From NCBI GenBank assembly GCA_017478725.1, contig JAFVDD010000042.1, positions 18,004 to 82,003 of the forward strand: a stretch of 64,000 nucleotides of DNA, read 5' to 3'. The first letter of the stretch is position 1; each line of letters opens with the position of its first letter. Origin of the DNA: Paludibacteraceae bacterium (GTDB lineage Bacteria > Bacteroidota > Bacteroidia > Bacteroidales > Paludibacteraceae). A program made the position numbers and the translations under genes. This document shows positions 30,777 to 64,000 of the stretch, in pieces. Below the pieces are notes generated by a model. It did no database searches. It was not told where the DNA came from and saw only the letters and a list, made by a program, of their open reading frames with translations.

Positions 30777-30805
30777 TCCTAAAGCATCAGCCAATTTTGG
30801 CTTAC

Positions 30806-30845
30806 AATAAATGCAGACTCATCCGAGCCTGCATTTATTATTTTA
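30806..30845 (+). terminator. Terminator after the small secreted protein gene
   Basis: An 11-bp perfect inverted repeat (30806-30816 with 30829-30839; AATAAATGCAG) with extra pairing in the loop is followed by ATTTT. It begins 29 bases after the stop codon. Confidence 0.8.
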
Positions 30846-30863
30846 CATGTATTGTTTTCATTT

Positions 30864-31139: not shown

Positions 31140-31218
31140 TTTTTCATCTATTTTTTTTACATCTATATGCTAGACAATACCTAGACCATACCTAGACCAT
31201 ATAAATGCTGTCCAGCCT

Positions 31219-31320
31219 CTATACATACCCTCGTCTTTGTTCGATGTAGTCGATGGTCGCCTGCGGAATTTCGGAGTGCTCTCTGGCGAGGGGCGGCCAC
31301 TGCGCAACGGCATCAACCAG
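31219..31320 (-). pseudogene. Possible gene remnant (C-terminal coding fragment)
   Basis: Between the AT-rich element and the GH28 terminator lies a GC-richer patch whose minus-strand frame reads LVDAVAQWPPLAREHSEI, continuing PQATIDYIEQRRGYV and a stop at 31219-31221. It has protein-like composition and no start codon of its own. The pattern weakly recalls the C-terminal helices of HipA-type kinases, but I cannot confirm that. It may simply be a chance open stretch. Confidence 0.3.
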
Positions 31321-31352
31321 AAAAAGAAAAGGCTCGCCATTTAGCGAGCCTT
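31321..31352 (-). terminator. Terminator of the GH28 gene
   Basis: A perfect 9-bp stem (31329-31337 with 31344-31352, AAGGCTCGC) with a six-base loop is followed on the minus strand by TTTTCTTTTT. A second perfect 9-bp hairpin (31360-31368 with 31371-31379) lies between it and the GH28 stop. Confidence 0.85.
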
Positions 31353-31380
31353 AATTTGCATCGTGCATTCATGCACGATC

Positions 31381-38830: not shown

Positions 38831-38901
38831 TTGTCCACCGAGGAGTCGAACCTCGCTTCTCGGAACCAAAATCCGGTGTAATACCGATATACGAGTGGAC
38901 A
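38831..38901 (-). tRNA. tRNA-Gln (anticodon UUG)
   Basis: Read on the minus strand the gene starts TGTCCAC and ends GTGGACA plus discriminator A, a 7-bp acceptor stem with the weak U1-A72 pair usual for glutamine tRNAs. The anticodon loop TTTTGGT gives UUG; the T arm is CGAGG-TTCGACT-CCTCG. The D stem is GTA/TAC, and one terminal anticodon-stem pair (C-A) is mismatched. CCA is not encoded (the next bases are CAA). Confidence 0.92.
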
Positions 38902-50503: not shown

Positions 50504-50581
50504 TGTGAATATTTTTTTAAGTGGGTATTATCTTTGAGTATATACATACAACAAAAAAACGTGAACTTTTGTCCGCTTTAT

Positions 50582-50720
50582 TTGATTACTTGAGGTCTTC
50601 GACTACCTATGATGCTCAAATTCTACGCAAAAGCTCACGCCGCAGGCGCGAGCGTCGAGTAGCTTTTGCTTGAACATCATGTGATTTACTTAAAAAGTGT
50701 CGAAGTTTCCAAGTAATCAA
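50582..50720 (-). promoter_or_regulatory. Long imperfect hairpin in the leader of the second giant gene
   Basis: Nested complementary segments: 50582-50592 with 50710-50720 (11 bp), 50598-50603 with 50699-50704 (6 bp), 50610-50614 with 50675-50679, 50616-50619 with 50670-50673, and 50627-50635 with 50661-50669 (9 bp). The loop is GC-rich. Another perfect hairpin (50745-50750 with 50755-50760) lies beside it. Transcription from the promoter at 50874-50905 would place both in the 5' leader. The stretch 50504-50873 contains no gene; it also holds the repeat array 50778-50857. Confidence 0.55.
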
Positions 50721-50777
50721 GTTTGGCTATTAACGCTGTTTGTCCGGCGCACACCTGCGCCTTGTATGTCTTTATTG

Positions 50778-50857
50778 GGCTTTCAGCTATCAGCTTTCAG
50801 CATGGTCAGACCTGTTTTTTCTTTCTGATGGCTGACTTCTGATTTCTGATGGCTGTT
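50778..50857. repeat. TTTCAGC/TGATGGC repeats in the second giant gene's leader
   Basis: GGCTTTCAGC, TATCAGC, TTTCAGC, then the 23-base block shared with 37224-37246, then TGATGGC, TGACTTC, TGATTTC and TGATGGC. Same family as the arrays between 33 and 38 kb. Confidence 0.8.
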
Positions 50858-50873
50858 TTTACTTTTTCGGCTG

Positions 50874-50905
50874 CAAAGGTACAACTTTTTTTTGAGATAT
50901 GCAAA
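50874..50905 (-). promoter_or_regulatory. Promoter of the second giant gene
   Basis: Minus-strand TTTG (50902-50905) and TACCTTTG (50874-50881), perfect consensus with a 20-base spacer. The predicted transcript begins near 50869, giving a leader of about 365 bases. Confidence 0.75.
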
Positions 50906-50935
50906 AAAAATATTTTTTTTATCTGCAAAAAGAGT

Positions 50936-50952
50936 TTGGCACGGGTTTTGCA
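50936..50952 (+). promoter_or_regulatory. Sigma54-type (-24/-12) promoter
   Basis: TTGGCACG (50936-50943), four bases, TTGCA (50948-50952): an exact match to the sigma54 consensus, with GG and GC ten bases apart. It points away from the second giant gene toward a terminator 75 bases on, with no protein gene between. The predicted start is near 50964. Bacteroidales encode RpoN, and a sigma54-type regulator gene lies at 16370-17578 in this window, but no link between them is shown. Confidence 0.55.
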
Positions 50953-50963
50953 ATAGTTGGTTC

Positions 50964-51056
50964 AGAAAGAGTAAGCTTGATTAAAGCAAGTGATAAAATA
51001 GAGATTGTTTGTTATACCTTATTAGTAAAAGAGGCCGTCGTGAGACGACCTCTTTT
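50964..51056 (+). ncRNA. Candidate sigma54-dependent small RNA
   Basis: The interval from the predicted sigma54 start point to the end of the bidirectional terminator is about 93 bases. It contains a small CTTG/CAAG hairpin and no ATG-initiated frame of note. It is supported only by the promoter-terminator pair. Confidence 0.35.
51027..51056 (-). terminator. Bidirectional terminator at the end of the 14-gene operon
   Basis: AAAAGAGG-C-CGTC (51027-51039) pairs with GACG-A-CCTCTTTT (51044-51056), one mismatch, loop GTGA. It lies 35 bases past the last gene of the operon, and both arms end in A4/T4, so it can stop transcription from either side. Confidence 0.85.
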
Positions 51057-51091
51057 GGTGTTTTGGGGTATAGCGACCCGGTAGCTGCCTG

Positions 51092-52120
51092 TTATTTAAA
51101 CCATTTGCCTTTGACCTGATAGGCGGGTTTTGCAGGTTGGGAGGTTGTGGCAGCGGTGTTCCATTTCTCGGAGTGCTCGGAAGCACTGTTGGCGGCAGCG
51201 GGGGCGGATTGTACGATCTGTTGCCGTGCGGCAGGCGAGTCGGCGGCTGCGATGCGCTGCTGTTGAGCTTCGAGTTGGTCTTCGTACTGCTGCATCTTGA
51301 ACTCCCATTCCTGCCGCTCTTTGGCATCGAGTTTGGCTGCTATTTCTTTTTGCAGCGCTTTGGCTTCGGGCAGGCAGGCTCCGTCGGTAGGAATGAGCGT
51401 CAGTGCTTCGGCGGCGGCAGCGGCATCGTGTTTGGCCCAGGCGGCCTGTGCCTGTTGGAGTGCCATGAGACAAACCTCGTCGCGCCATGCCTGATAGGCA
51501 GCGAGCGACTCGTCCTGTGCGCGCCGGTAGCATTCCTCGCAGACGGCAGGTATGCCGGCGAGGAGGTCGAGCGCCTCGGTGTATTGGTGGCGTGCCACTT
51601 GGTTGCGTGCATCGGCGATGATGATATCGCAATAGGTGTTGTAATAGGCGACGATCTCCTGTTTACCTTTGTCGATCATGGCTTTGAAAGCAGGGTCGTT
51701 GACGCGTACGTTTTTGAGCGCATTGATATAGGCTTTCTCGGGCGACGGTCCTACTCCCTTGGTCTCGACAGTGTGTGAGGAAAAGAGTCGTCCCTCGATG
51801 CCGTCTCCCACGAAGAAAGTGAGCGCGATGGTGTAGGCGTGCATAGGCGGCGCGGTAGGTGTGATATCCTTGGTGAGGATGTCGGCGGAGCAGGTGATGA
51901 CAAAGCGGCTGTTGGAGACAGCTGCGCATCCGTTTTTGGCGGCCATCTGCGTCATTTTGTTGACGAGCTGTTTGTGCGCTCCGGCAGGTATGGCCTCATC
52001 GAGCACAACGGGCGTGAGTGCCACCCGCTGTTGGTCGTTGAGGCGGTTGTCGGAGTCTTGCGCGCAGATGAAACCGGCAGAAAAGAGGAGGGTAAGAATG
52101 AGGGAAGTTATCTTTTTCAT
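51092..52120 (-). CDS. Secreted protein of the envelope operon, CsgG/TolB-N-like N-terminal half, unknown function
   Basis: A 342-residue secreted protein with signal peptide MKKITSLILTLLFSAGFICA. Residues about 35-150 (VVLDEAIPAGAHKQLVNKMTQ, CAAVSNSRFVITCSADIL, HTVETKGVGPSPEKAYINAL, read in parts) have the look of a CsgG/FlgT/TolB-N alpha/beta domain. Residues about 170-245 form a helical TPR-like hairpin region (YTEALDLLAGIPAVCEECYRRAQ); the rest is Gln/Ala-rich coiled coil ending in a short basic tail KGKWFK. It is the last gene of the operon and begins one base after the upstream stop. No catalytic motif is seen. Confidence 0.65.
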   Translation of the reverse strand: MKKITSLILTLLFSAGFICAQDSDNRLNDQQRVALTPVVLDEAIPAGAHKQLVNKMTQMAAKNGCAAVSNSRFVITCSADILTKDITPTAPPMHAYTIALTFFVGDGIEGRLFSSHTVETKGVGPSPEKAYINALKNVRVNDPAFKAMIDKGKQEIVAYYNTYCDIIIADARNQVARHQYTEALDLLAGIPAVCEECYRRAQDESLAAYQAWRDEVCLMALQQAQAAWAKHDAAAAAEALTLIPTDGACLPEAKALQKEIAAKLDAKERQEWEFKMQQYEDQLEAQQQRIAAADSPAARQQIVQSAPAAANSASEHSEKWNTAATTSQPAKPAYQVKGKWFK

Positions 52121-52121
52121 A

Positions 52122-53537
52122 TTATTTGTCTCCTATGATAAGTTGTATTTGTCCGAGCCCTTTGGCAGAGAGGTTGGAATCGATATTGTATTTGTTGCGT
52201 AGCATTTTCTGGAGCGGTCTTGCCCAGGCTCTGGCGTCAAGGTCCCGGCCTTTCTCGTTGGTGAGGGGTATATGTACCTGCTCGATGGTCATGCGGTTGC
52301 CTGAGGGACTGAGATCGACGGCACCGAACTTGGAGTTGACGGTGTTGTCGGCGACCCAGTCGGTGATGATCTCATGCAGCTCATCGCCGTCGAGTTCGGT
52401 CATCAGTCCGTCCTCGAAGGAGTCCCATGAGAGGATGCGCATTTTGATCGGCCTGCCCTGTTGTGCCAGTTTGGTGAAATAATCCTGCATCGTGTTGCAG
52501 AAGGGGTCGAACTGTCCCTGAATAGCCGATTCCATCATGATAGGCAGCTGGAAGGAGGAGGTATAGACGGCTTGTCCGGTGGTAGGCGGTACGCCGGCAA
52601 CGACGAAATCGGTGTAGGCGTCGATAGCGCGCATGGAGTAGGTGAGCCGTGTGACGGAGCCGCCTTTCTCCTGCGTAGTGTACCAGTCAATCTCAATCCA
52701 GATATCGGCCTTGGCTGTACGGCGCAGGATGTCGATAGGCGTCTCTGCAATAGCGTCACCGGACTTGGAGGTGATCATTGCGTCTTCGGCGGACTCGGAT
52801 TTGAGTGTTTTGAGTGCCGCCTCAAGGTCCTTGATGGGGAATCCCCGTTTGGTCATGCGTGCGTTGATTGTATTGATAGCGACGGTGAGGTCAGTACTGC
52901 TGAGTAGCGCTTTGTTGTAGTCGGGTACTTCTTCTGTGACGCCCTGGTTGTCGAACGTCTGTGTGAAGCCGTTGCGGTGGCACCACGCGGCAGCGGGTAC
53001 GACCATGATGGTCGGCATTTTGCCCTGGATTTGGTCCATAGGCTTGAGAATACCGTCTTCCTCCAGCCGTTTGCGCAACTGGTCGATGAGCACCACGACG
53101 GTGACCGCCACTTTGTACTCTTTGCCGACTTTGAGTATCTGGTCAGGCACACCGTTGCCGATATAGGAAACATAGCGTTGGTAAGCGCCGCCGGTTTTGA
53201 AGAACTCGGTGAAATAGTCCTGATATTTTTGCTCGGTATCAGGATCGTTGATGAGCGGGTCTCGTCCGACGATCCGTGTGCCGTCGTTGCTGGCCGGGAA
53301 ACCCTTGAAGATAATACCGTGCACGGCGTTTTTGCCGGCCTGCCCTTCCGCTATATTCGGCTTGGTGGAATAAGTCCAGACGCGGACGAGTGTGGCGCCT
53401 TCGACAGCCTGTCCTACGGCAGCCTGCAGTTCGTAGCGCCATTGTGCAGTTTGTGTGTCGGCTTTGCGTTGCGTCTGCGCGCAGAGGGAGGCAGCCATAC
53501 CGACGCAAGCCATTAGGAGTGATACAAATCGTTTCAT
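52122..53537 (-). CDS. Secreted protein of the envelope operon, DUF6175-like
   Basis: A 471-residue secreted protein with signal peptide MKRFVSLLMACVGMAASLCA. The segments KMPTIMVVPAAAWCHRNGF (about 190), AINTINARMTKRGFPIKDLEAAL and RRTAKADIWIEIDW resemble the Bacteroidota DUF6175 family, which to my reading has a CsgG-like fold; that assignment is from memory and tentative. A helical C-terminal portion follows (PLQKMLRNKYNIDSNLSAKG). It lies 18 bases after its neighbour in the operon. Function unknown; no enzyme motif. Confidence 0.65.
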   Translation of the reverse strand: MKRFVSLLMACVGMAASLCAQTQRKADTQTAQWRYELQAAVGQAVEGATLVRVWTYSTKPNIAEGQAGKNAVHGIIFKGFPASNDGTRIVGRDPLINDPDTEQKYQDYFTEFFKTGGAYQRYVSYIGNGVPDQILKVGKEYKVAVTVVVLIDQLRKRLEEDGILKPMDQIQGKMPTIMVVPAAAWCHRNGFTQTFDNQGVTEEVPDYNKALLSSTDLTVAINTINARMTKRGFPIKDLEAALKTLKSESAEDAMITSKSGDAIAETPIDILRRTAKADIWIEIDWYTTQEKGGSVTRLTYSMRAIDAYTDFVVAGVPPTTGQAVYTSSFQLPIMMESAIQGQFDPFCNTMQDYFTKLAQQGRPIKMRILSWDSFEDGLMTELDGDELHEIITDWVADNTVNSKFGAVDLSPSGNRMTIEQVHIPLTNEKGRDLDARAWARPLQKMLRNKYNIDSNLSAKGLGQIQLIIGDK

Positions 53538-53555
53538 ATGAATAGTGAATAATAT

Positions 53556-54884
53556 TTATCCTTTGATTTGCCGGATGAGCATACCCGGCAGGATGTCGGC
53601 AGGATTGCCGGAATCGAGTTTGAAGAGTGTGCCTTGGATCTCTCCGTCGGAGTCGTTCTCGATAAGTGCATTGAACCGGTTGTCCCATATACGGTTTTTA
53701 ACCGGCACCAGTTTGGCGACGGGGCGGTAGCTCAGTTTGCCTTTGACCAGTTTGCATTCCAGTACTTCGAATTTCAGGTTGTCTTCCACTCCTTCTTTCT
53801 CGCCGATAGGCGCCCTGAAACCGATGATTTTGCCTTTTTTGTTGTACTCGATGGCGGTGATAGGCGCTTTCACGCGGAAAGCCTCGAAGCGTTTCTGCAG
53901 TTTTGCGACATTCTTGTCGATCGAGCGTACGGTAATCATTTGCAGGAGATCCTCCCGGCTGTATTTGCCTACCACTTTGGTTTGCTCGGCGTTAGCCGAT
54001 TCGGTACCGAGATAGACGATGCGGAAGGATGTCTCGTCTTTGAGGAAAGCGGTTAGTTTTTCCGGGTTCGGCTCGGTAGTGTAATAATTGGTGTAGAAGA
54101 GGTTGGCTATACTGTCGTTCCATACCAGTTGGAACAGATAGGAGTGCGTCATGACCTTGAATCCGGTGAACTGGTCGGAGATGTCTCCTACATCTTCTGC
54201 CATACGTCTTCCCGAGTTGCCTCCGGTGAAGACATCCAGCACGCCTCCTAAGACGGCAAACGTGGTTTTGGCTGCCGTGGCGCGGTTTTCGGCAGTGATG
54301 TACGTCATGTCGCTGACGAGTACAAAGGAGTGGCTGATCAGTTCCTCGGATATGTTTCGCAAGGCAGCCGTGCCTTCCACCGTAAACCGTGCTTTCTCGA
54401 CATCCGCAACGGAGGCATTGTAGTCGCTCCGTTCCTCAATCAGGTTGGTATTGAAACAAGCGTCCTGGAGTGTCTGACCGTGTAAGCCGAACCATTTGGC
54501 CACGATCCGTTTGCCTACCTCGGCATCGTTGAGCAGTTGTAGCAGCGCGTCGGCGTTAGCCTGTTTCTCGTCGGTTGTGAGTACCATGCTGCTGCCGTAA
54601 GTCTGGCGGTGCAGTCCGTTGCCTTTGTGCTTGCTGACGCCTGTGATAAGGGCGTTGTCCAGAACCCGCAAATCGATATCGTGCGTGTCGTATTTGTCAG
54701 CAGGCGGCAGGTCTTTAAAAATCTGATAAACATCATACCCGAACTCATCCTCGGCATGATAGACCATCATGTTGGTCAGCGCATTGCGGTAATACGGGCT
54801 GAACGTGCGCTTTTCGGCTTTCTGCGCCTGTGCCATAGCAGCACCTATCAGTGCTGCGGTTAGTATCAGAAGAGTCTTTTTCAT
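53556..54884 (-). CDS. Secreted protein of the envelope operon, unknown function
   Basis: A 442-residue protein with signal peptide MKKTLLILTAALIGAAMAQA. I do not recognise a family. Visible features: a short N-terminal segment with FSPYYRNALTNMMVYHAEDEFG, a Gly-rich stretch TTFAVLGGVLDVFTGGNSGRR near residue 225 that could associate with membrane, repeated aromatic-rich strands (HSYLFQLVWNDSIANLFYTNYY, read in parts), and a beta-rich C-terminal third (SYRPVAKLVPVKNRIWDNR; IQGTLFKLDSG). It sits between the collagen-like gene and the DUF6175-like gene with 11- and 18-base gaps. Confidence 0.6.
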   Translation of the reverse strand: MKKTLLILTAALIGAAMAQAQKAEKRTFSPYYRNALTNMMVYHAEDEFGYDVYQIFKDLPPADKYDTHDIDLRVLDNALITGVSKHKGNGLHRQTYGSSMVLTTDEKQANADALLQLLNDAEVGKRIVAKWFGLHGQTLQDACFNTNLIEERSDYNASVADVEKARFTVEGTAALRNISEELISHSFVLVSDMTYITAENRATAAKTTFAVLGGVLDVFTGGNSGRRMAEDVGDISDQFTGFKVMTHSYLFQLVWNDSIANLFYTNYYTTEPNPEKLTAFLKDETSFRIVYLGTESANAEQTKVVGKYSREDLLQMITVRSIDKNVAKLQKRFEAFRVKAPITAIEYNKKGKIIGFRAPIGEKEGVEDNLKFEVLECKLVKGKLSYRPVAKLVPVKNRIWDNRFNALIENDSDGEIQGTLFKLDSGNPADILPGMLIRQIKG

Positions 54885-54895
54885 TGCATGCCTCC

Positions 54896-56092
54896 TTATT
54901 TGAAAATCTGACCTATAAACGCATCCACATCTGCGGCTACGTAAAGGAAATCGCCTCTCTGTCCGTCTCGGCCGTCTTTGCCGTCTTTGCCGTCATTGGC
55001 TTTGCCGGAGCATCCGCTGCCCTTGCCGTGGATGCCTCCTTCGCCTCCTTTGCCTCCTTTGCCGCCTATACCGGCATCAATCGTGGCAATGAGTCCGTCA
55101 ATGCCGTAGGTCTCTATGAAATCCGGGCTGAGGCAGAAGAGGAAATGTCCTCCGTCGGTGCCGTCTTTTCCGTCGGTGCCGTCCTCGCCGGGCTTGCCGC
55201 AAGTGCCGGCAATAGAATGTGTGTTGCCGTCTTTGTCTTTGTAAGAGCTCTGGTTGGTACCGTTAGCGCCGTAGCGTCCTTTCTTGCCGTTGGCACCGTC
55301 TTTGCCGTCGCCGTTGATAACCAGCGGCAGTTCCACGATACGCATGACGTGTGAATCAAGGTCGCAGAGCACGCCTGTATTGTCCGCGGCTTGGCTCTTG
55401 AGACGGCATAGAGCCAGTGCGTGTGTCTCGCCGGAGAGATTGAGCTGCTTGTCCCAGTACATCAGCAGGTCAAACGTGTAGGAGGCTCCGGAGAGGAGGT
55501 GGGTACATTCGATCTTGTGCTGCAACGGGTAGTAGCCTGCGGCGATGAGGACCGTAGGCACTTTGAGCTCGATCTTGTTGCCGTTCATGGCAATAGCCTC
55601 GCTTTCGGTGGTGAGCTTGAACTCGCTCATATCCACGGCTTTGTGGCTTTTGTTGATGATGCGGATCTCGTTGCCGTTGCTGATGACGGCATAAGAGATA
55701 CGGTCTTTCTTGACATTGAATTTGCCTCCGTCGCCTTTGACGGCCTCACGTCCGTGAGAGGTGTTCAGCAGGCGGTAATTGGGGATGTGCATCTGGTATT
55801 TGTCCGAAGGGTTGTACCGGATGGCAAACGCTTGGTTGTCCCCGGAGATGATATATTGCTCTTTCTTGGCCCTCACCGTTGCCCCCACAGCCGCCTTTGT
55901 ATCGGTGACAGGGGTGAGAAACTTGTTGTGCCGCTCGGTGCGCGTGCGCTCGTATTTGGCAGCCATCTCCTCAGGCATGGGAGCTTCCGCCATCACTGCC
56001 GGCGGAAGAGGGCGGCTCAGTTCGGTCAGCCGTTGGGCATAGCCGGTGCCTGCCAGCAGCAATATACTTATCAGGAGGTTGATTCGTTTCAT
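54896..56092 (-). CDS. Secreted protein with collagen-like Gly-X-Y tracts
   Basis: A 398-residue secreted protein; the ATG at 56092 (MKRINLLISILLLAGTGYA) gives a standard signal peptide, better than the ATG at 56104. Residues about 30-265 form a beta-rich domain. Then come Gly-rich tracts with G-x-x periodicity: GDGKDGANGKKGRYGANG near 270, GKPGEDGTDGKDGTDGG near 305, and GGKGGKGGEGGIHGKGSG plus GKDGKDGRDGQRGD near 350-385. Tracts are short and broken by an apparently folded stretch (HFLFCLSPDFIETYGIDGLI). A collagen-like triple helix is plausible and would imply a trimer. The C-terminus (VAADVDAFIGQIFK) is helical. Function unknown. Confidence 0.65.
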   Translation of the reverse strand: MKRINLLISILLLAGTGYAQRLTELSRPLPPAVMAEAPMPEEMAAKYERTRTERHNKFLTPVTDTKAAVGATVRAKKEQYIISGDNQAFAIRYNPSDKYQMHIPNYRLLNTSHGREAVKGDGGKFNVKKDRISYAVISNGNEIRIINKSHKAVDMSEFKLTTESEAIAMNGNKIELKVPTVLIAAGYYPLQHKIECTHLLSGASYTFDLLMYWDKQLNLSGETHALALCRLKSQAADNTGVLCDLDSHVMRIVELPLVINGDGKDGANGKKGRYGANGTNQSSYKDKDGNTHSIAGTCGKPGEDGTDGKDGTDGGHFLFCLSPDFIETYGIDGLIATIDAGIGGKGGKGGEGGIHGKGSGCSGKANDGKDGKDGRDGQRGDFLYVAADVDAFIGQIFK

Positions 56093-56114
56093 AGGAGTGT
56101 TCAATCAAGGTGGT

Positions 56115-57041
56115 TTAGCGGATGTAGCACCGTGTGGTTATTTTCTTGCCCAGAACGGTGTATTGCACATCCAGCCAGTTTTGGTCTTCGTCGTAGCAGC
56201 CGGTTAAGAAATCGTAGGTGAACACGGCTGTGTTGCGGGTGATTTTTGTCTCGACAGCGGTGAGACAGTTGCTTTTGGTTTTGGGCTTGAGTGTGTTCTC
56301 CAGTTGTGTGTCGCCATAGAACAGCGCCACGGTAGTCCGTTGCCGGTCGGAGTCCAGCACAGCGATGCGGAGGTTCCGGCTGAGCATCTGTTCGTAGTTG
56401 CGCCGGATGGCTGAACAAATATCCTGCCGCGGGTCATCCTCGCGGAGCGAAGCGGCAAACTGTTTGAGTCGGGAATGGCGGAGCAGCATCCGGTCCAAGT
56501 TGTCGTAGTCCGCCATGTCGGTTGAGGCGAATGCCTGCAAAGAGTCGTTCAGGACTATTTGCTGTTTCTCGTAGTCCTCCACCAGCAATCGGAGTTTGGA
56601 GTTGGATAGCGGGTATTTGATGTGATAGATATAATAGGTGGATTTGTCCGCCCTGCGTATCTTCGCCCAGTAGTAGGCTTCGGCGTGCGAGGGCGATATA
56701 TTGGCCAGATAGGGTATATCCGCAGCCTGGACACTCAGCCGGCTGTCCAGTTCCTTGTGGAAATCAATACTGCCGTTGTCGGTCACCTCATGCATGGTGA
56801 TAGTGGTGGCAGAATGCAGGCGCGTAGCCACGGCCGAAACAATCTGTTCGCGCAGCTGTGTCATGGCTTTCTCCTGTGCATCACTGAGCGTGGCGGCTTG
56901 GGCAGACACAATGAAGTAACCGTCCTCCATGCCGCCTATCCACTTAGGTGTACGCCGTGCGGAGGATTGCACTACTCTGTCAGCGGCAACTGCCGCTCCG
57001 ATGAGCAGCAGTGCCGTTGCAAAGCAAATCAGTCTTTTCAT
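56115..57041 (-). CDS. Secreted LPP20-like protein of the envelope operon
   Basis: A 308-residue secreted protein with signal peptide MKRLICFATALLLIGAAVAA. The region PKWIGGMEDGYFIVSAQAAT followed by SDAQEKAMTQLREQIVSAV (residues about 33-75) has the LPP20 pattern: a Trp-containing strand, then a helix starting with conserved Ala residues. YYWAKIRRADKSTYYIYHIKYPL is the second half of that domain. The C-terminal about 100 residues look all-beta (NLRIAVLDSDRQRTTVALFYG). LPP20-type proteins are poorly understood envelope proteins often found with CsgG homologues. No lipobox Cys is present, so it is periplasmic or secreted. Confidence 0.65.
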   Translation of the reverse strand: MKRLICFATALLLIGAAVAADRVVQSSARRTPKWIGGMEDGYFIVSAQAATLSDAQEKAMTQLREQIVSAVATRLHSATTITMHEVTDNGSIDFHKELDSRLSVQAADIPYLANISPSHAEAYYWAKIRRADKSTYYIYHIKYPLSNSKLRLLVEDYEKQQIVLNDSLQAFASTDMADYDNLDRMLLRHSRLKQFAASLREDDPRQDICSAIRRNYEQMLSRNLRIAVLDSDRQRTTVALFYGDTQLENTLKPKTKSNCLTAVETKITRNTAVFTYDFLTGCYDEDQNWLDVQYTVLGKKITTRCYIR

Positions 57042-57062
57042 CTTGATTGGGTGATAGAGGAT

Positions 57063-57743
57063 TTAGAAACCCAGTGCGCTATCCAGTTGCTCGTGCAGCT
57101 TGTTGCCTTTTTTCTCCAGCTCGTCGCGGACAGCTTTGCGTGCAGCCTGTTTGGCCATTTCGCCGTTGTAAGCGATACGAACCAGCACTTCCTTGTTGCC
57201 GCCTTTCTTCACCTCGCGATAGCACTCTACCACGGGGATGGTCTTGCCGATAGATTGTGAGATGAGGTTTTTGCTGGCCATCACGGTCTCAACGATAGAT
57301 GCGGCATCACCTGCTTCCATCTGTTTGTTGGCTACGGTGTTCTCGATGAGAGCGCTTACCTCGGTCTGGATCTGACCGGCCAAATTGGTGATAGCCAGGC
57401 TCGTAGCGGATGTCTTGGCTGCATCGTAGTTCTCGCCTATCGACTGAGCGTCAGCCATAATGTATTTGGGGAAGAGGTTCTCGTCATACTCCATCTGCAT
57501 GCGATACGAACGATCCAGCTGTTTCTCCAGCGGCAGCTGACCCGGGCTGACGATCCAACCTTCTTTTTTCAGGCGTTTGGCCTCTTTGCGTGCATCCTTA
57601 ACGGCGCGCTCGTTCAGCTCTTTCTTGGTCTGTTTGCGGATCTCCTGACGCTCTTTGCGCAGTTGTTTAGATTCGGACTGGTCGGCCCAGCTCGTGCCAC
57701 AGGCTATTACTACAGCCATCATGACAAATAATAACTTTTTCAT
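57063..57743 (-). CDS. Second LPP20-like exported protein with charged coiled coil
   Basis: A 226-residue protein; signal peptide MKKLLFVMMAVVIACGTSWA. Residues 22-65 are a highly charged helix (KQLRKERQEIRKQTKKEL). The remainder (YDENLFPKYIMADAQSIGENYDAAKTSA, TNLAGQIQTEVSALIENTV, NKEVLVRIAYNGEMAKQAARKA, read in parts) again has the LPP20-type order. It probably pairs with its neighbour. A 68-base gap upstream, containing TTAGTAGTT-type repeats, is the longest in the operon but shows no promoter. Confidence 0.65.
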   Translation of the reverse strand: MKKLLFVMMAVVIACGTSWADQSESKQLRKERQEIRKQTKKELNERAVKDARKEAKRLKKEGWIVSPGQLPLEKQLDRSYRMQMEYDENLFPKYIMADAQSIGENYDAAKTSATSLAITNLAGQIQTEVSALIENTVANKQMEAGDAASIVETVMASKNLISQSIGKTIPVVECYREVKKGGNKEVLVRIAYNGEMAKQAARKAVRDELEKKGNKLHEQLDSALGF

Positions 57744-57811
57744 AACTGTAAAAATTTGAGATTAGAGTTAGTGATTAGTTGGTAATTAATTAGTAGTTCG
57801 TTAGTAGTTTC

Positions 57812-58168
57812 TCACCCGTTGCTCTTGGGTCTGCCCAAGGCGTAGGCCGCCATCAGCCAGATGAGTGTGACAACACCAGTGGTGAGAATATAGGTGGGTT
57901 TGGAAACGGCGGTCGTCAGCGCAAATACAAACTGCATCACGGTGACGATGCCGGCAAAAATACCGTTGAACACCTTGAAATTGATATTTCGTCTCTGGTC
58001 TTCCACACTCACCGCCATAGTGCCGGCCCAGGTCAGGAAGATACTGACGCCTCCGAGGATGGTGATAATCCATTGCAACTCCTCGTTATGGCAGTAGGAA
58101 TATAGTGCGTAAGCTACCAGTGCTGCCAGTGCCAGCGACAGGACAGTCATAATAGGATTGATTTTCAT
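57812..58168 (-). CDS. Small four-helix inner-membrane protein
   Basis: A 118-residue protein with four hydrophobic segments (MTVLSLALAALVAYALYSY; LQWIITILGGVSIFLTWAG; NGIFAGIVTVMQFVFALTT; ILTTGVVTLIWLMAAYALG). I chose the ATG at 58168, just before the first helix; the ATG at 58201 would overlap the upstream gene. No family is recognised. Its place next to GYF_2/SPFH genes suggests a membrane anchor for that complex. Confidence 0.65.
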   Translation of the reverse strand: MKINPIMTVLSLALAALVAYALYSYCHNEELQWIITILGGVSIFLTWAGTMAVSVEDQRRNINFKVFNGIFAGIVTVMQFVFALTTAVSKPTYILTTGVVTLIWLMAAYALGRPKSNG

Positions 58169-58197
58169 TGTAGTTGAATGTGTTTGGGGGTGATACA

Positions 58198-58509
58198 TCA
58201 TACCGGAAACAGCGGTGCCAATTCAGCCACGGTTGCCGCTTGTTGCCATGCCGGCATACCCTGACACCATACCAGTGTCTCTTTGGCAATCTGACCGGTC
58301 GGAACGAACGGACGCAACTGGTCTGCTGTGTACGGGCCGTATTGCTTGCCTCCGATGGCAAGAAAATAGGCATTCGCTTTGGGGAGCGGAGGAGGCACTG
58401 GTTGGGTGGCGCTTGCATTCGCAGTGTTCATCATCTGCGGAATCTGTTGCATCATAGCCATGCCCATACCGAATTCCACCACTTTGTCAAACATACCTGA
58501 ATCAGTCAT
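58198..58509 (-). CDS. Small GYF_2 (DUF4339) domain protein
   Basis: A 103-residue cytoplasmic protein. Residues about 48-100 form a GYF_2 domain: YFLAIGGKQYGPYTADQL, then a segment with LVWCQGMPAWQQAA. GYF_2 domains usually bind proline-rich or membrane-protein peptides and are often fused to SPFH or membrane proteins. The N-terminal half is Met-rich (MGMAMMQQIPQMMN) and probably helical. It is the shortest of three GYF_2 proteins encoded in a row here. Confidence 0.85.
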   Translation of the reverse strand: MTDSGMFDKVVEFGMGMAMMQQIPQMMNTANASATQPVPPPLPKANAYFLAIGGKQYGPYTADQLRPFVPTGQIAKETLVWCQGMPAWQQAATVAELAPLFPV

Positions 58510-58528
58510 AGCAGTAATGTTTTTAGGG

Positions 58529-58927
58529 TTAGTTCAAATTAGCGAGACAATTCTTCAGATCCGTCCACTCGGGAGTTCCCTGACGCCATACTTGTGTGTT
58601 CTCATCTATTACATCCACTATAGCCAGACCTTTCAACTGCTCCAACGAGATAGGACCCTTTTGAGCGCCGTTGATAAGTACAAAAAATTGAAGCTGCTCT
58701 GTTGCTGCCTCGCCGGCTGCGGCACGCCGCTCTTGGTCAATACGGTCAAAAACAGGCGAAGAAACTGCTTGCGGTACATTGCCGAAAGGAGGCGGGGTCT
58801 GCATAGCCTGAACATTCTGTATGGCCTGCTGGGACATCTGTGTGACTGCACCGGAGTTGACCATCTGGTTCTGTGTGAAGAAACCGGTGCCGGCACTAAC
58901 TAGTGCGTCAAAATCTTGGGGATTCAT
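58529..58927 (-). CDS. GYF_2 (DUF4339) domain protein
   Basis: A 132-residue cytoplasmic protein. The GYF_2 domain lies in residues about 80-132 (FFVLINGAQKGPISLEQLKG and TQVWRQGTPEWTDLKNCLA). The N-terminal part (SAGTGFFTQNQMVNSGAVTQMSQQ, read in parts) resembles the equivalent segment of the neighbouring GYF_2 protein, suggesting duplication. Gap to the next gene is 19 bases. Confidence 0.85.
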   Translation of the reverse strand: MNPQDFDALVSAGTGFFTQNQMVNSGAVTQMSQQAIQNVQAMQTPPPFGNVPQAVSSPVFDRIDQERRAAAGEAATEQLQFFVLINGAQKGPISLEQLKGLAIVDVIDENTQVWRQGTPEWTDLKNCLANLN

Positions 58928-58971
58928 AACGATATTTGCAATTTAATCAGTTTTATCATTTGCCATTTCTT

Positions 58972-60579
58972 TTACCTCACAGGAGGCGGGGGCGGTACAC
59001 TACCGGGAATAGGCGGTGTGGGCGGAGTGGGGGGAGCCGGCGGTGTCTGGAGCAGCTGTGCAAGTGCGGGAATCGTTCCTGCGGCTGCCCATTGAGGCAT
59101 CCCTTGTGCCCATACCATCGTCTGCAGGTTGATTTGCCCTGCTGCAGCCATCTGACGCAGGGTGTTCGCGTCAAACGGACCGGCCTGCTGGTTGTTGACC
59201 AGTACAAAATAGGCTGTAGCATTGGGTGTGGGGGGAGCTGGGGGCGTCTGACCCGGCATAGGCGGTGGTGTCGGGGCACTGCCTTGGGTAACCTGATTAT
59301 TGAATGCGTTACCCATATTGCCCATCATCTGACCCATCTGACCGGCCATGCCTGAAGCCATACCCATACCCATCATCATACCCGCAGGATTCATGCCGCC
59401 TCCGTTGCCGAAGTCCATCATTCCCATGTTGCCGATGTTCTCCATGCCGGTGCGCATGACATCGCCTTGTACATTCACGGTGTGTGCACCCAAATTGGAC
59501 TGTTCGGACGACAGGGCTGTACGGTGCATTGTGGCATCGGTCTGCATATGCTGTGCGTATTGTGATTCTTCGCGCATGCGATCCATCATATCCTCCATGT
59601 GATCCATCTGAATATTGGCCTGACGGATAACCATGCCGTTGCGAACAGCGGCGTCGGTAGCCAACTGTTCCAGAAGATTCTTCTGGTTCTGCATGGAAAT
59701 ATTGTAAGCCTGCCTTGATACAAGATCCTTGAGCTGTTGGTAGTCTTCGCTGTTCTCCTTGAACCGGATGTCTGTTATATCCAGACGGGTAGGCCACAGC
59801 CCCAGCGTATTGCATAGGTCTGTGTTTATTTTCTGGTAGATAACTTTCTGCCATTCCTCAATCATTTCATTGGCTTGCAGAACAAACACGCCTTGCGGAA
59901 TCTTGGAGAATGTACCTTTGATACTACTGGTCACCATCGCTAAAATCTTGTCTTGCACATCTTCCATCGTGGTGTCCTTGCCGCCCCACATACGGAATAC
60001 CTTACGTGCCGCCTCTTTCAAAGTCTCAATGCGGAAATCCTCGTACTCCAGAGAGGTCATGTTGTTTTGTCTCCGATACATGTACATGCCCTCCATTTGC
60101 ATGTCAGTCGGTGCTGCAGCAAAAGTCAGTGTGCCGTCCACTGCCATCTCTATATTGTACATGGAGAACTCTTTCTGCGAGGGACGGACGGTGAAATACG
60201 GGACGGTGAAATGTACCTGCATTCCGCCCTCATAGAGGGTTATGAAATATACCTGTGCCTGAAACGGTGTTCCTCCATCATAGGCTTTGCCGATGATATT
60301 GGCTAATACAGGCATGTTCCCTGTCTCAATAGTGCCGTTGAAATAACCTAAACGAACATCCGATTTGCCACCGCTATTAGGATAAATAAAGATGGCGGCT
60401 TGACCCTCGTTCACCAGCAGGCTGCTACCCGTACGGATCGCATTCTCCTTGTTGGTTGAGTTGGCTCCTTGCCCTTTCGGACGCCATTTCCAAATCAGGT
60501 AATTTTTTACATCTCCGATGTTAATGGCGTCCATCAGACCGCCTTCGTTTGTTTTCTTACCTAAACCGAAAAGTCCCAT
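58972..60579 (-). CDS. SPFH-domain protein (YdjI/virion-core-like) with C-terminal GYF_2 domain
   Basis: A 535-residue cytoplasmic scaffold. Residues about 15-60 (NLIWKWRPKG-type segment reads YLIWKWRPKG; GSSLLVNEGQAAIFIYPNSG) and up to about 300 match the YdjI-type SPFH family, also annotated as virion core protein; such proteins form large membrane-associated oligomers. A helical stretch (about 280-355, including MDHMEDMMDRMREESQ) follows, then a Met/Gly-rich linker (MGMASGMAGQMGQMMGNMG), a GYF_2 domain (about 455-515; YFVLVNNQQAGPFDANTLRQ, VWAQGMPQW) and a proline-rich tail ending PPPPPVR. The Pro-rich parts could be ligands for the GYF_2 domains of its neighbours. Confidence 0.88.
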   Translation of the reverse strand: MGLFGLGKKTNEGGLMDAINIGDVKNYLIWKWRPKGQGANSTNKENAIRTGSSLLVNEGQAAIFIYPNSGGKSDVRLGYFNGTIETGNMPVLANIIGKAYDGGTPFQAQVYFITLYEGGMQVHFTVPYFTVRPSQKEFSMYNIEMAVDGTLTFAAAPTDMQMEGMYMYRRQNNMTSLEYEDFRIETLKEAARKVFRMWGGKDTTMEDVQDKILAMVTSSIKGTFSKIPQGVFVLQANEMIEEWQKVIYQKINTDLCNTLGLWPTRLDITDIRFKENSEDYQQLKDLVSRQAYNISMQNQKNLLEQLATDAAVRNGMVIRQANIQMDHMEDMMDRMREESQYAQHMQTDATMHRTALSSEQSNLGAHTVNVQGDVMRTGMENIGNMGMMDFGNGGGMNPAGMMMGMGMASGMAGQMGQMMGNMGNAFNNQVTQGSAPTPPPMPGQTPPAPPTPNATAYFVLVNNQQAGPFDANTLRQMAAAGQINLQTMVWAQGMPQWAAAGTIPALAQLLQTPPAPPTPPTPPIPGSVPPPPPVR

Positions 60580-60616
60580 AATTGTATAGATTTATTGGTG
60601 AGTATTTGTCTTCTGT

Positions 60617-61636
60617 TTATTGGTATGCGGCTACTATCTTGTTCAGCTTCTCCTCTACTTTCGCTTTGCTGTAGCGGCTGGTGCTGCGGTTGGAAGCGAA
60701 ATGCAATGCCTTCTTGGCAATAAACTGTTGCGCAGGACTGATCATTCCCGCCTCGCACATCAGCTTGACGCACTCTTCCATGTAGTCGTAGTATTCCTTG
60801 TCCGTAGGCTTGGCTTCCACGTTGATATAGGCCTCTGCTTGCTCGTAATCGCCTACGGAGAGCAGGTAGTTGTACAATCCGTGGTTCAGCGGTTGGGTAT
60901 AGGCTCCCTGACCGTAGTATTCCACCAGCGCCTTGGCATCTTCCCACATACCTTCGTCCATATATTTGCTCAGCAGCGTGACGTAGCCTTCAATCACTTC
61001 GTCCTTGTCGTTCTTGTATCCTACTACGTAATTGCGTGCCTGCTTCAGGTTGTCTTTATCCACAGCCGTGGTTACTGCGGCTACACAGCGGTCGGCATTG
61101 TTGGCTGCCGTGTCGCGGAATGCAATCAGCACTCCCCCTGCTACCAGCAATGCAATCACTACGCAGGCGGCAACCACTATTGTTTTTATGTTTGCGCTCA
61201 GCCAGTTCTTGCGACCGCTTTTATCCTTTTGCGCTTGAATGGAGGCGTACAACCCGTCAAACTCATCCGCAAACGGCTTCAGCTGTCTGTCGTTCGGAAA
61301 GGAGACTTTAATCTTCTCAATAATCTCCTGGTATTTCACCATATAGGCGTCGGCCAGAGGGCTGTCTATTTTCTGAATACGCGGCTTGAGTGCTGTCACA
61401 AACTCCAACAAGTCTGCTTTGGAATTAGGCAACGGAAAGGTCTCTATAGCCTGACATTTGTCTTTGTCAGACTCGCATTGAGCCAGCAATGCGGCTAATA
61501 TCATCGAACTGCTGTTGGCGGCTATCTCGCTGAACTCATAGCCGCATTTGGGGCATACCGATGCCGATTCAGGCACTACTGCTCCGCAATTGGGGCAATG
61601 CTGCACTTCTCCGCCTTTGGTCTTATATTCACTCAT
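60617..61636 (-). CDS. Zinc-ribbon membrane protein with extracytoplasmic helical domain
   Basis: A 339-residue protein. An N-terminal zinc ribbon CPNCGAVVPESASVCPKCG (residues 14-32) is followed by a helical cytoplasmic region (about 40-135) and one membrane helix (TIVVAACVVIALLVAGGVLIA, about 150-170). The remainder is a periplasmic helical, TPR-like domain (EDAKALVEYYGQGAY; DYEQAEAYINVEAKP). The zinc ribbon-helix-periplasmic domain layout beside an SPFH gene parallels YdjG of the Bacillus subtilis YdjFGHI PspA system. I infer an anchor or sensor linking the SPFH scaffold to the periplasm. Confidence 0.82.
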   Translation of the reverse strand: MSEYKTKGGEVQHCPNCGAVVPESASVCPKCGYEFSEIAANSSSMILAALLAQCESDKDKCQAIETFPLPNSKADLLEFVTALKPRIQKIDSPLADAYMVKYQEIIEKIKVSFPNDRQLKPFADEFDGLYASIQAQKDKSGRKNWLSANIKTIVVAACVVIALLVAGGVLIAFRDTAANNADRCVAAVTTAVDKDNLKQARNYVVGYKNDKDEVIEGYVTLLSKYMDEGMWEDAKALVEYYGQGAYTQPLNHGLYNYLLSVGDYEQAEAYINVEAKPTDKEYYDYMEECVKLMCEAGMISPAQQFIAKKALHFASNRSTSRYSKAKVEEKLNKIVAAYQ

Positions 61637-61653
61637 GATAAATATAGTATAAT

Positions 61654-62229
61654 TTAGTTTTTACTCTTCTTTTTGTTTGTATCTACTCGCAATATTACAC
61701 TTTTGGGAAAACACTCCAAAGAAATTAAGTTATATTGAATATCGTTGATGTATCCATATATTGGGAATGAATAATATGTGGCAATTGTGTGATAGCGGTC
61801 GCCCTTTTCGTTTAAATGTAAGTTTTGCAACTCAAATCCATATGATCGTAGGTCTTCTAAAATCTGGTAGGCTAACGAATAGGCGTTCTCCCAATCAGAA
61901 GCTGAGAAATGATAACGAGTCCAGTTGTATTTGCAGTTGAAAGTTGAAACAGTTATCGTGCTCTGATAGCATTTCCCAATCTTGCAATTTATCTCATCTT
62001 TATTATATTTGTCAAAACAATCCTCACCATAAACAGCAACTATTTTCTTTTTCTGTTTGGCAGCAGATTCTGACCACTTCACATCTTTCATCCCTAACGG
62101 ATAGCGCAGCAAGTCATGAATGGGAATAATTCTTTCTTCGGGGGTATCATTTGCCTTAGATGTCTGGGCAAACAGACACCCCGTTCCAATTACTATACAA
62201 CACAATATACCTATTAGTCGTTTCATCAT
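61654..62229 (-). CDS. Secreted protein of unknown function
   Basis: A 191-residue protein with signal peptide MMKRLIGILCCIVIGTGCLFA; the Cys residues in the hydrophobic stretch do not form a good lipobox. The mature part is Lys/Tyr-rich with a central pair of Cys residues (EDCFDKYNKDEINCKIGKC), a helix (DWENAYSLAYQILEDLRSYGF) and a beta C-terminus. Codon usage looks more AT-rich than the neighbours. No family is recognised. Gaps of 8 and 17 bases place it inside the operon. Confidence 0.6.
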   Translation of the reverse strand: MMKRLIGILCCIVIGTGCLFAQTSKANDTPEERIIPIHDLLRYPLGMKDVKWSESAAKQKKKIVAVYGEDCFDKYNKDEINCKIGKCYQSTITVSTFNCKYNWTRYHFSASDWENAYSLAYQILEDLRSYGFELQNLHLNEKGDRYHTIATYYSFPIYGYINDIQYNLISLECFPKSVILRVDTNKKKSKN

Positions 62230-62237
62230 CGCAATAA

Positions 62238-63311
62238 TTATTGTTTAGTAATAGGGATATTCTTGATTTCAAGGCTGGCTCCCCCATATGGACGGTCTGA
62301 CATACCTCGGAAACTACATGTGAAAGATGTGATTTTAGTTGCTTCTTCGTCAAAATTGCTAATCTCAACTTGCATTTTTACAGATGTCTCAGTCGGCATG
62401 TCAAAGTGGGTACCATATTCATCAAATCGATTGCCTGCAATCATTCCCGTGGTTTTATGCTTATTGTAGTTGTTTCCTGCATTGTCAAAGACTTGAAACG
62501 GCTTTGTACCCAAGTTCGGCTCTCTTTCTAAACTACTGCTCAAACTGTTCTTGGAATTGTTGGTTATGAGTATTGTCATTTGCAGACGTCCCGTGGAATA
62601 GACACATTTGGTAACTCGAAATGACACACCGGCATATCCATCCCAATATACTTTGTATGCCGTTTGAGGCCTGGGAGTCGATGTGGATTGATTAGACTGT
62701 GTGTTGCTTCCGGGAGCAGGAGGCGCTGTAACCTGTTTGGGAGGGTTGGCTGCGGGGTTTGTACTAACAGGTGCAGACGATGCTGCCGACGAAGTAATCC
62801 CTGTCTTCAGTTCCACGTCCAACAGATTGCCTGCCATGGTAGTACAACCTATTTGAATATCTTGAGGTGTCGCTTTCATCAGTTGGTTCTCTGCGCGTAA
62901 GGTTCTGGCTGTCTCCACATCTATAATTTTAGCAGTGCAAAAAATCATGGTGGAATCTACTTTCACGGCTTCTGCCACCAGCACATATTGTGCTCCGGTC
63001 AGTTTTCCCAACTCCTTGATCTGTTCGTCACTCACCAAACCGGTGCGCTGGAAGTTTTGTTCTCCTAACAGCGACTCCAGGTCCGTGCGGTCATAGCCTT
63101 CATAGCCTTCCGCCTCGGTGATGGCTTTGGCAAGGCTGGTGCGCAGCATCAGCTTGTGGGCGTATGAAATCGTACCCATTTTGTCAACGGTTTCCAGAAT
63201 AGCCACTTTCTTAACTTGTGGCTGTTGTGGCTCTGCCTTTTTGATGTCTCGTCCGAACATCGGCAAGAAAGTCATACCCAGGACGAGGAATAAAGAAATT
63301 ATTTTTTTCAT
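62238..63311 (-). CDS. CsgG/LpoB-family exported protein
   Basis: A 357-residue exported protein; the signal (MKKIISLFLVLGMTFLPMFG) has no lipobox, unlike E. coli CsgG or LpoB. Residues about 30-165 form the CsgG-type domain: KKVAILETVDK, HKLMLRTSLAKAITEAEGYEGYDRTDLESLLGEQ (in parts), GLVSDEQIKELGKLTGAQYVLVAEA and FCTAKIIDVETARTLRAE. A Ser/Pro-rich linker (about 175-210) precedes a C-terminal beta domain (YAGVSFRVTKCVYSTGRLQM) that resembles DUF-type beta sandwiches. CsgG itself forms a secretion pore, whereas related proteins act in signalling or wall-synthase activation; which applies here is open. It overlaps the preceding gene by four bases (ATGA). Confidence 0.8.
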   Translation of the reverse strand: MKKIISLFLVLGMTFLPMFGRDIKKAEPQQPQVKKVAILETVDKMGTISYAHKLMLRTSLAKAITEAEGYEGYDRTDLESLLGEQNFQRTGLVSDEQIKELGKLTGAQYVLVAEAVKVDSTMIFCTAKIIDVETARTLRAENQLMKATPQDIQIGCTTMAGNLLDVELKTGITSSAASSAPVSTNPAANPPKQVTAPPAPGSNTQSNQSTSTPRPQTAYKVYWDGYAGVSFRVTKCVYSTGRLQMTILITNNSKNSLSSSLEREPNLGTKPFQVFDNAGNNYNKHKTTGMIAGNRFDEYGTHFDMPTETSVKMQVEISNFDEEATKITSFTCSFRGMSDRPYGGASLEIKNIPITKQ

Positions 63312-63799
63312 TCTGTCAAGTATTGTTTGATGGTTGCTTGGATTTGCGGAATCATTTTATCATATGCCTCTGTAGCTGCTTCGTCAAAACCCGCTGTATG
63401 ACGGCCTTTTTCGGTTAGCACACCTTCATATCGCCTCTGCCTGAAATTGCCACGGTCTATCAGAATCGTAACTTCTACTTTGACAGCGTAATAACTGATG
63501 CTCCCAAAGTCCGTTTGCTGCATATCCAGTGTCTGGCCTGTTACACTTACTGCCCAATCGGCGTCTGTGGGGGTGTGTACGACGAGGTAGCCGGCATCAT
63601 ACAATGTATTCGCTATCTGTGTACGGACGCCTGTGTAGGTGTACCCACCGGCTATGGTGTTACACTCTATATATACACGTTCTTGAACTGCAGGCTTTTG
63701 CTTGGTGGCTTTCTTTCCACCTGCCGACAAGTCTGTGCAGGGTATGCACAACAGCACCAGTGCAATAACAAAGCTTATATGCGGATATTTTATTACCAT
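63308..63799 (-). CDS. First gene of the envelope operon: small exported protein, unknown function
   Basis: A 163-residue exported protein. I chose the ATG at 63799 (MVIKYPHISFVIALVLLCIPCTDLSA, signal read in parts); the in-frame ATG at 63817 lies within the promoter. The mature part (VYIECNTIAGGYTYTGVRTQIANTL; VVHTPTDADWAVSVTG; YYAVKVEVTILIDRG; in parts) looks like an alpha/beta domain of the CsgG/LptE kind, with two strands after a helix. With the promoter's predicted start near 63803, the mRNA would be leaderless or nearly so. It leads an operon of 14 genes. Confidence 0.65.
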   Translation of the reverse strand: MVIKYPHISFVIALVLLCIPCTDLSAGGKKATKQKPAVQERVYIECNTIAGGYTYTGVRTQIANTLYDAGYLVVHTPTDADWAVSVTGQTLDMQQTDFGSISYYAVKVEVTILIDRGNFRQRRYEGVLTEKGRHTAGFDEAATEAYDKMIPQIQATIKQYLTE

Positions 63800-63806
63800 T
63801 CGGGCG

Positions 63807-63838
63807 CAAAGGTACAAAAAATATTTTGCATATGCAAA
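63807..63838 (-). promoter_or_regulatory. Promoter of the 14-gene envelope operon
   Basis: Minus-strand TTTG (63835-63838) and TACCTTTG (63807-63814), a perfect consensus with a 20-base spacer. No other promoter of this quality is found within the following 12.7 kb. Confidence 0.8.
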
Positions 63839-63863
63839 TTTTTCTGTACTTTTTTATATTTTA

Positions 63864-64000
63864 ACCCGTTGGCGGAATTACCCCAGCGCATATTTAATTC
63901 TTCCAATCGGTTTGTTGTTGATAAAGTTAATATATTGTAGGACAGTGATTGCGCTGATTTTGCTGATAATACGAGCAAAAAGTCCTACTTGTTGTTTGGC
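63864..64000 (-). mobile_element. End of an IS982-like insertion sequence (truncated by window)
   Basis: The transposase 3' end (63878-64000) is followed by ACCCGTTGGCGG, starting at 63864, which suits an IS982 family terminus (ACC ends). The inferred IS end lies 25 bases upstream of the -33 element of the envelope operon. The other end is outside the window, so the inverted repeat cannot be verified. Confidence 0.55.
63878..64000 (-). CDS. IS982-like transposase, C-terminal fragment (partial)
   Basis: A minus-strand frame open from the window edge for 40 codons ends with TAA at 63878. The peptide includes LFARIISKISAITVLQYINF and NNKPIGRIKYALG, which closely resembles the C-terminus of Bacteroides IS982-family transposases as I remember them. 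It is the fragment only; the DDE catalytic residues lie beyond the window. Confidence 0.65.
   Translation of the reverse strand, partial: AKQQVGLFARIISKISAITVLQYINFINNKPIGRIKYALG

Follow-up and report, generated by a model that had tools for sequence, protein, structure and literature searches.

Introduction

SPFH proteins are widespread, and their connections to other parts of the cell envelope are poorly known. Among the closest described arrangements is the pspA-ydjGHI operon of Bacillus subtilis. In the accessible part of PMC8581546, YdjI is an SPFH protein that is needed, together with YdjG and YdjH, for bringing PspA to the membrane. The accessible part of PMC11237479 places band-7 proteins with PspA, describes YdjG as carrying zinc ribbons and a membrane segment, and does not use the term GYF. 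In both sources, as far as their available text goes, the SPFH-zinc-ribbon operon of Bacillus is a stress operon. Here, we report on a 14-gene operon (g01 to g14) that includes an SPFH gene and is located in a 64,000-nucleotide stretch of DNA, hereafter the window, from a Paludibacteraceae bacterium of the order Bacteroidales (GenBank assembly GCA_017478725.1, contig JAFVDD010000042.1, positions 18,004 to 82,003 of the forward strand). The core of the operon is composed of two modules. Module B consists of the zinc-ribbon membrane protein g04, the SPFH-GYF protein g05, the GYF adaptors and the four-helix membrane protein g08, and module A consists of g12, the DUF6175 protein g13, the TPR-like g14, the LPP20-like g10 and g09.

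The locus resembles pspA-ydjGHI in that an SPFH protein is encoded beside membrane proteins, which in the Bacillus system place YdjI at the membrane (PMC8581546, accessible part), and it resembles YdjG, as described in the available text of PMC11237479, in that g04 is a neighboring membrane protein with a zinc ribbon. It differs in that PspA was not found and a large exported module follows. In addition, g05 has a GYF_2 domain and GYF adaptors in place of the C-terminal zinc ribbon of YdjI; zinc-ribbon-like CxxC pairs are present in one of the other SPFH loci, L092 (loci and genomes are given L and G numbers throughout). We take YdjI to belong to Pfam Band_7_1, the family matched by g05. A search for PspA/IM30 gave no matches in the window's own genome (84% complete), and in the 12 searched genomes in which the two modules are linked none exceeded the cut-off, with a sub-threshold match in G765 (L125). 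Over all 40 genomes searched, a set to which L164 does not belong, PspA was above the cut-off in five, none of them linked, and sub-threshold in G765 and in G725 (L118). Membership of a phage-shock (Psp) system was therefore rejected.

Two other systems offer partial parallels. The outer rings of the Vibrio flagellum contain FlgO, FlgP and FlgT, LPP20-type and CsgG-like periplasmic proteins that form rings. Members of the CsgG, LpoB and LPP20 families are also encountered here, as g02 matches CsgG, g10 matches LPP20 and the head gene of L125 matches LpoB, but the other exported proteins are not recognizable as such by sequence, and the 14 genes include neither flagellar nor curli genes. The second is GltJ of Myxococcus, a component of an envelope-spanning gliding complex that has a zinc ribbon and a GYF domain facing the cytoplasm. 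The GltJ model aligns to the GYF_2 and proline-rich part of g05 (E-value 7.6e-6, 25.3 bits against a cut-off of 450), and the likeness is confined to that region; no paper relevant to this parallel was found in the open-access literature. The same literature, a coverage outside which subscription papers and preprints fall, held nothing on DUF6175, nothing on any pair among SPFH, LPP20, CsgG, GYF_2 and DUF6175, and nothing on a system combining SPFH and GYF domains, the accessible part of PMC7159879 having SPFH in its reference list. We thus found no description of the two-module system in open-access sources, where it is apparently undescribed, in agreement with the initial annotation.

Results

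The initial annotation described 14 genes on one strand, and re-derivation of the frames and gaps bore this out: 14 open frames with clean stops run along the minus strand from 63799 to 51092, with intergenic gaps of -4 to 68 bases. The window is the final 64 kilobases (kb) of contig C1 (82,003 bases), and window and contig stop together just beyond the upstream side of the operon. Ahead of g01, where a consensus promoter had been annotated, lies a TTTG-N20-TACCTTTG pair (63807..63838, minus strand), the promoter form used by Bacteroidota. Only two such pairs occur on the minus strand of the region, against a mean of 0.01 in 200 base shuffles, and the second (50905-50874) stands ahead of the next downstream gene. 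The scan for TTTG/TACCTTTG pairs detected no other -7 box with a -33 partner within the operon. Behind g14, the annotated strong terminator is an intrinsic hairpin (51020..51064, minus strand) with a fold of -19.7 kcal/mol and a z-score of -6.7. The claim that the operon yields a single transcript is therefore upheld in so far as it has one clear promoter and terminator, but signals were also called inside it. A generic sigma-70 scan of both strands from 48000 to 64000 returned 27 sites where 16.3 (standard deviation 4.1) were expected, of which seven fall within the operon on the minus strand, and a terminator scan listed 23 where 18.8 (standard deviation 4.3) were expected, with three so placed. 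Given these scans there may be extra transcription starts inside the operon; the generic sites were judged weak because the promoters of this organism are of another type.

In order to define which genes belong together, we compared the operon with its closest relatives. Seven aligned SPFH proteins, used to scan genome contigs, produced 435 relatives; the best 80 were retained, and seven of them (L109-L114 and L121) are close relatives that carry the same unit. In those nearest to the window, titled uncultured Bacteroidales, g05 is 83% identical. Gene presence was scored by tblastn, and for g12 additionally by profile. Genes g04-g10 and g13 are present in all seven relatives, g12 in six by tblastn and in seven by profile, and g14 in six, the contig of L113 stopping before it; g11 is present in three. 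None of g01-g03 was found by tblastn in the loci of the seven. A search of the 300 bases ahead of g04 revealed the same promoter type about 50-60 bases ahead of this gene in all seven, six with TACCTTTG and one with TATCTTTG. The conserved unit is therefore the 11 genes g04-g14, and since g01-g03 were not recovered at these loci and the relatives' promoter precedes g04, these three genes represent a local insertion between promoter and core. The gene set proposed as a conserved unit thus holds for 11 genes, and a unit of all 14 was rejected.

Parts of the core appear to be mobile. In L112-L114, g12 (23-25% identical) and g13 (42-44%, split in two) are divergent inside an operon that is otherwise similar, with g04-g10 being 55-80% identical, so this cassette has seemingly been exchanged. 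Flanking genes also partly differ: by eye, a small outer-membrane-type protein upstream of g04 is common to L110-L114 and absent from L109 and L121, and the downstream genes are common to L114 and L121 and different in L111. This divergence and the differing flanks would suit cassettes that travel together by chance, as neighbors with no common function. We nevertheless consider such an explanation decidedly unlikely, given that the two modules meet at five more loci where their order varies.

These five loci (L089, L094, L116, L123 and L125) lie outside the window's clade, the joined modules thus being present in distantly related bacteria, and carry the two modules as neighbors on a single strand, in three arrangements unlike that of the window. 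In L089, L123 and L125 the module A genes come first, followed by g04, g05, GYF and g08. In L116, g04 is followed by three LPP20-like genes, DUF6175, g14, a gene of 154 amino acids, g05, two GYF genes and g08, and in L094 the order is g13, g14, g04, g05 and g10. Linkage labels were verified on six-frame translations of 86 loci and none was altered. The gene at the head of the unit in L125 has an LpoB match just above the cut-off (22.6 against 22.3 bits), with CsgG below its cut-off, and LPP20 gave weak matches to one L094 gene and three L116 genes. In L116 (2354-6877), the genes between the g04-like gene and DUF6175, three of which were called, encode exported proteins whose starts are related and which match LPP20 weakly.

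Adjacency of this kind is far more frequent than simple placement would give. Outside the clade, 17 genomes were found to contain both modules: four came from the order sample, and 13 came from a search of the 44 genomes to which 44 of the 80 contig loci belong. In five of the 17 the modules are adjacent, and a simple model of placement, assuming 2.5 Mb genomes and 9 kb, gives this a probability of 3.6e-9, for a count that starts from SPFH loci and draws on two genome sets that may overlap. In a maximum-likelihood tree of SPFH proteins (85 rows, comprising 84 loci and the window; L119 and L173 were omitted as they have no 300-residue SPFH call), 13 of 85 rows are linked, and the linkage label needs six changes, at least four of which are forced by well supported branches. 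The place of L094 in the tree is unsure because of its long branch. In the same tree the SPFH protein of L168, from a contig titled Erysipelothrix, clusters with Bacteroidota rows; this contig is possibly mislabelled or contaminating. The occurrence of the two modules next to each other in varied orders at five more loci argues for functional coupling, and at the level of gene order the predicted coupling of modules A and B is well supported.

Each module also exists without the other. In many of the loci fetched there is no SPFH gene beside module A, which comprises g12, g13 (in one or several genes), g14 and often g10 and g09, and DUF6175 is present in 13 of 296 genomes of a phylum sample, own genome counted. 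Module B is found alone in many Bacteroidota, and its SPFH protein extends to Spirochaetota and Bacillota, frequently accompanied by a g04-like gene. Of the genomes of the order that carry the window's SPFH subfamily, a single-sequence search detected g13 relatives in G000, G203, G221 and G414 and none in G048 and G188, and a profile search, which at whole-genome scale did not include the latter two, added G369. In G000, G369 and G414 the two modules lie next to each other. The expectation that homologues would keep a common neighborhood is therefore borne out for the core and the five additional linked loci, but most of the loci examined for either module stand alone.

The products of module B agree, by Pfam and hydropathy, with the annotated set of an SPFH-GYF_2 protein, two further GYF_2 proteins, a zinc-ribbon membrane protein and a four-helix membrane protein. 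The core opens with g04 (60617..61636, minus strand, as are all 14 genes), which has a zinc ribbon above the Pfam cut-off and, by hydropathy, a single central helix at residues 153-171 followed by 168 residues, making it a candidate inner-membrane bridge. Next is g05 (58972..60579), in which an SPFH domain (Band_7_1, E-value 5.3e-12) is followed by a Met/Gly-rich segment, a GYF_2 domain likewise above the Pfam cut-off and a Pro-rich tail. Two GYF_2 adaptors, also above cut-off, are encoded by g06 (58529..58927) and g07 (58198..58509), and hydropathy gave no membrane helices in g05, g06 or g07. The small membrane protein g08 (57812..58201) has about four helices by hydropathy. A second, smaller SPFH-GYF locus is found on contig C4 of the same genome (L233:6115-8263), encoding an SPFH-GYF protein of 367 amino acids, a membrane protein of 116 amino acids and two small zinc-ribbon proteins; profiles of module A detected nothing in the 14 kb fetched around it.

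The candidate bridge was assessed at loci where a g04-like gene lies directly upstream of the SPFH gene, asking for at least 80 residues past the last predicted helix. Such a gene is directly upstream in 12 of 13 linked loci, the exception being L116, where it is at the operon head, and in 55 of 72 unlinked loci. At least 80 residues follow the helix in 12 of 12 linked loci compared to 16 of 55 unlinked ones, for which the Fisher value of 5e-6 is overstated because eight of the 12 linked g04 proteins belong to one clade. The outer domain of g04 is homologous across the clade, L089 and L123. As several g04-like proteins, including that of L094, have more than one helix, the side on which their C-terminus lies is uncertain. 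These data bear on a reading in which the operon joins two envelope-stress modules that share one promoter, and hence respond to the same signal, and that never touch, one being an SPFH module at the inner membrane that resembles YdjG/H/I and the other a distinct set of periplasmic proteins. That each module is common alone fits this well, as does the stress operon of Bacillus introduced above (PMC8581546; PMC11237479; accessible parts). It accounts poorly for the same pair of modules being adjacent in several arrangements and for the enrichment of the g04 outer domain at linked loci, and we regard it as rather doubtful.

Nine products (g01-g03 and g09-g14) have Sec-like signal starts by inspection, as annotated. 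In module A, g09 (57063..57743, 226 amino acids) is represented by a family alignment of 12 members and has no fold support from sequence. Next to it, g10 (56115..57041, 308 amino acids) is LPP20-type by profile comparison: in hhalign it matches a profile of 15 LPP20 proteins from other genomes of the order with 96.4% probability (E-value 1.1e-9, 190 columns). The LPP20 Pfam domain gave no match to the window's g10 itself and weak matches to two of 16 family members (best E-value 0.018). No convincing Pfam family was found for g12 (53556..54884, 442 amino acids), any given Pfam match being confined to a single one of 25 members of its family. In g13 (52122..53537), a domain of about 170 amino acids is fused to DUF6175 (above the Pfam cut-off); the halves are separate genes in many relatives and are fused in the window and in several relatives. 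Among L089 and L102-L108, duplicates of the N-terminal part occur in L102 and L106-L108, and inspection suggested a lipoprotein-like character for this part in places. The last gene, g14 (51092..52120, 342 amino acids), encodes an N-terminal domain and a TPR-like part, with a TPR-type match at an E-value of 0.1 or less in 15 of 24 family members (best 4.1e-7; 0.035 for the window's member). ARAGORN placed a tRNA-Thr within g14 in antisense (51836-51931, plus strand); the call has no Rfam match and was rejected as most likely false, the sole Rfam tRNA in the window being at 38831-38901.

Three exported proteins lie outside the conserved core. No family was found for g01 (63308..63799, 163 amino acids), for which nothing exceeded the cut-off, or for g03 (61654..62229, 191 amino acids), whereas g02 (62238..63311, 357 amino acids) is CsgG-like, matching Pfam CsgG at an E-value of 3.4e-5 (23.7 bits, cut-off 20.8). 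Within the core, the exported g11 (54896..56092, 398 amino acids, most likely starting at the ATG at 56092) has collagen-like GXY runs and is a variable member. The five to six CsgG/TolB/LPP20-type folds originally proposed are therefore recognizable by sequence in g02 and g10, but not in the others. Against the LPP20 profile, hhalign showed no likeness for g09, g12, g13 and g14 (at most 7.5%; 11.5% for the N-terminal part of g14), and these negatives say little about fold because the LPP20 and CsgG profiles themselves likewise fail to match (0.6%). The analysis of folds covered Pfam, NCBIfam, hhalign and Protein Data Bank sequences; against the last of these, the profiles of g09, g13 and g14 had only weak matches, with E-values of 0.33 or more, and the hhalign matches between module families in early runs were mainly to signal peptides.

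A CsgG-like protein beside an LPP20-type one raises the question of whether the operon serves export, or assembly at the outer membrane, by way of a CsgG-like pore. In favor of this are g02 in the window, the LpoB/CsgG-like gene in L125, g10, and the collagen-like g11, which could be a substrate. However, the loci of the seven close relatives yielded no g02, four of the seven lack g11, and no ATPase, translocase or outer-membrane barrel model exceeded the Pfam cut-off in the 14 proteins. The secretion role offered by the initial annotation is accordingly unlikely, and so is export in this wider sense.

The patchy distribution of the system would also be expected of an anti-phage or conflict system. 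Against this, no toxin or enzyme domain was above cut-off in the 14 proteins, and a PADLOC scan of ten of them (all except g01, g06, g07 and g11) returned one weak match, of Cas12f to the zinc ribbon of g04 (E-value 0.011), which makes a defensive function highly improbable. The SPFH protein had two partial matches among plasmid records, and no SPFH relatives were found among viral contigs, phage records being outside that search.

Elsewhere in the window, the gene directly downstream of the operon (41549-50503, minus strand) follows the promoter-like pair at 50905-50874 and encodes a protein of 2984 residues with FG-GAP, Listeria-Bacteroides repeat and CBM26 matches. An open frame of 3194 residues (5547-15131, plus strand) has cadherin-like sandwich matches only at an E-value of 1e-5. 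A SusC/SusD-type pair with a family 28 glycoside hydrolase on the other strand (23024-32871) might be a pectin utilization locus.

Discussion

An envelope-spanning mechanism is the best reading of the core, and we infer it as follows for GYF-proline binding, complex formation, the topology and bridging of g04, the oligomers outside and the role. The SPFH-GYF protein g05 would oligomerize at the inner membrane, where the four-helix g08 would hold it, and the GYF_2 domains of g05, g06 and g07 would cross-link g05 by binding proline-rich stretches such as its own tail. The protein g04, whose zinc ribbon would lie inside and some 168 residues outside, could form the link across the membrane to module A (g09, the LPP20-type g10, g12, the DUF6175 protein g13 and the TPR-like g14), which would be the oligomeric partner outside. 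The role is likely structural, sensing or stabilizing the envelope much as YdjI-type SPFH proteins do at the inner membrane, extended here into the periplasm. We see the odds as about even that g04-g14 encodes a PspA-independent SPFH scaffold at the membrane and couples it to an assembly in the periplasm or outer membrane. A fuller version we hold only tentatively, as possible: an envelope-spanning machine of Bacteroidota with an SPFH cage, GYF wiring, a zinc-ribbon transmembrane link and a DUF6175/TPR/LPP20/CsgG-type assembly, its parts joined more than once and its accessories (g01-g03 and the collagen-like g11) exchangeable.

Several observations weigh against such a coupled scaffold. The modules are mostly apart: among the 86 SPFH loci in six-frame translation, 12 are linked, 73 have no module A gene and one, L150, has module A about 5 kb off on the opposite strand and was counted as unlinked. 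Of 393 genomes of the order, own genome counted, 81 contain relatives of either half of g13, mostly alone, versus seven with the window's SPFH subfamily, and in 36 other genomes of the genus g05 has matches only in its GYF part or weak ones (31-34%) in its SPFH part. Linkage may have been either gained or lost at the changes in the SPFH tree. The g14 tree, in which L089 and L123 cluster, is compatible with a single origin of linkage. The partner set is also incomplete in places, with g12 undetectable in L094, L116 and L125, and only two of the nine exported proteins (g02 and g10) have LPP20 or CsgG sequence support. Finally, the outer domain of g04 is also present in L120 and L167, from genomes in which no DUF6175 was found; the domain is therefore not specific to module A, and its exclusivity to module A loci was rejected.

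One SPFH subfamily nonetheless adjoins a defined exported set of unknown role in several gene orders, which provides a concrete set of partners for both. It also yields a first functional hypothesis for DUF6175, a domain belonging to a protein whose relatives are found in 81 of the 393 genomes of the order sampled.

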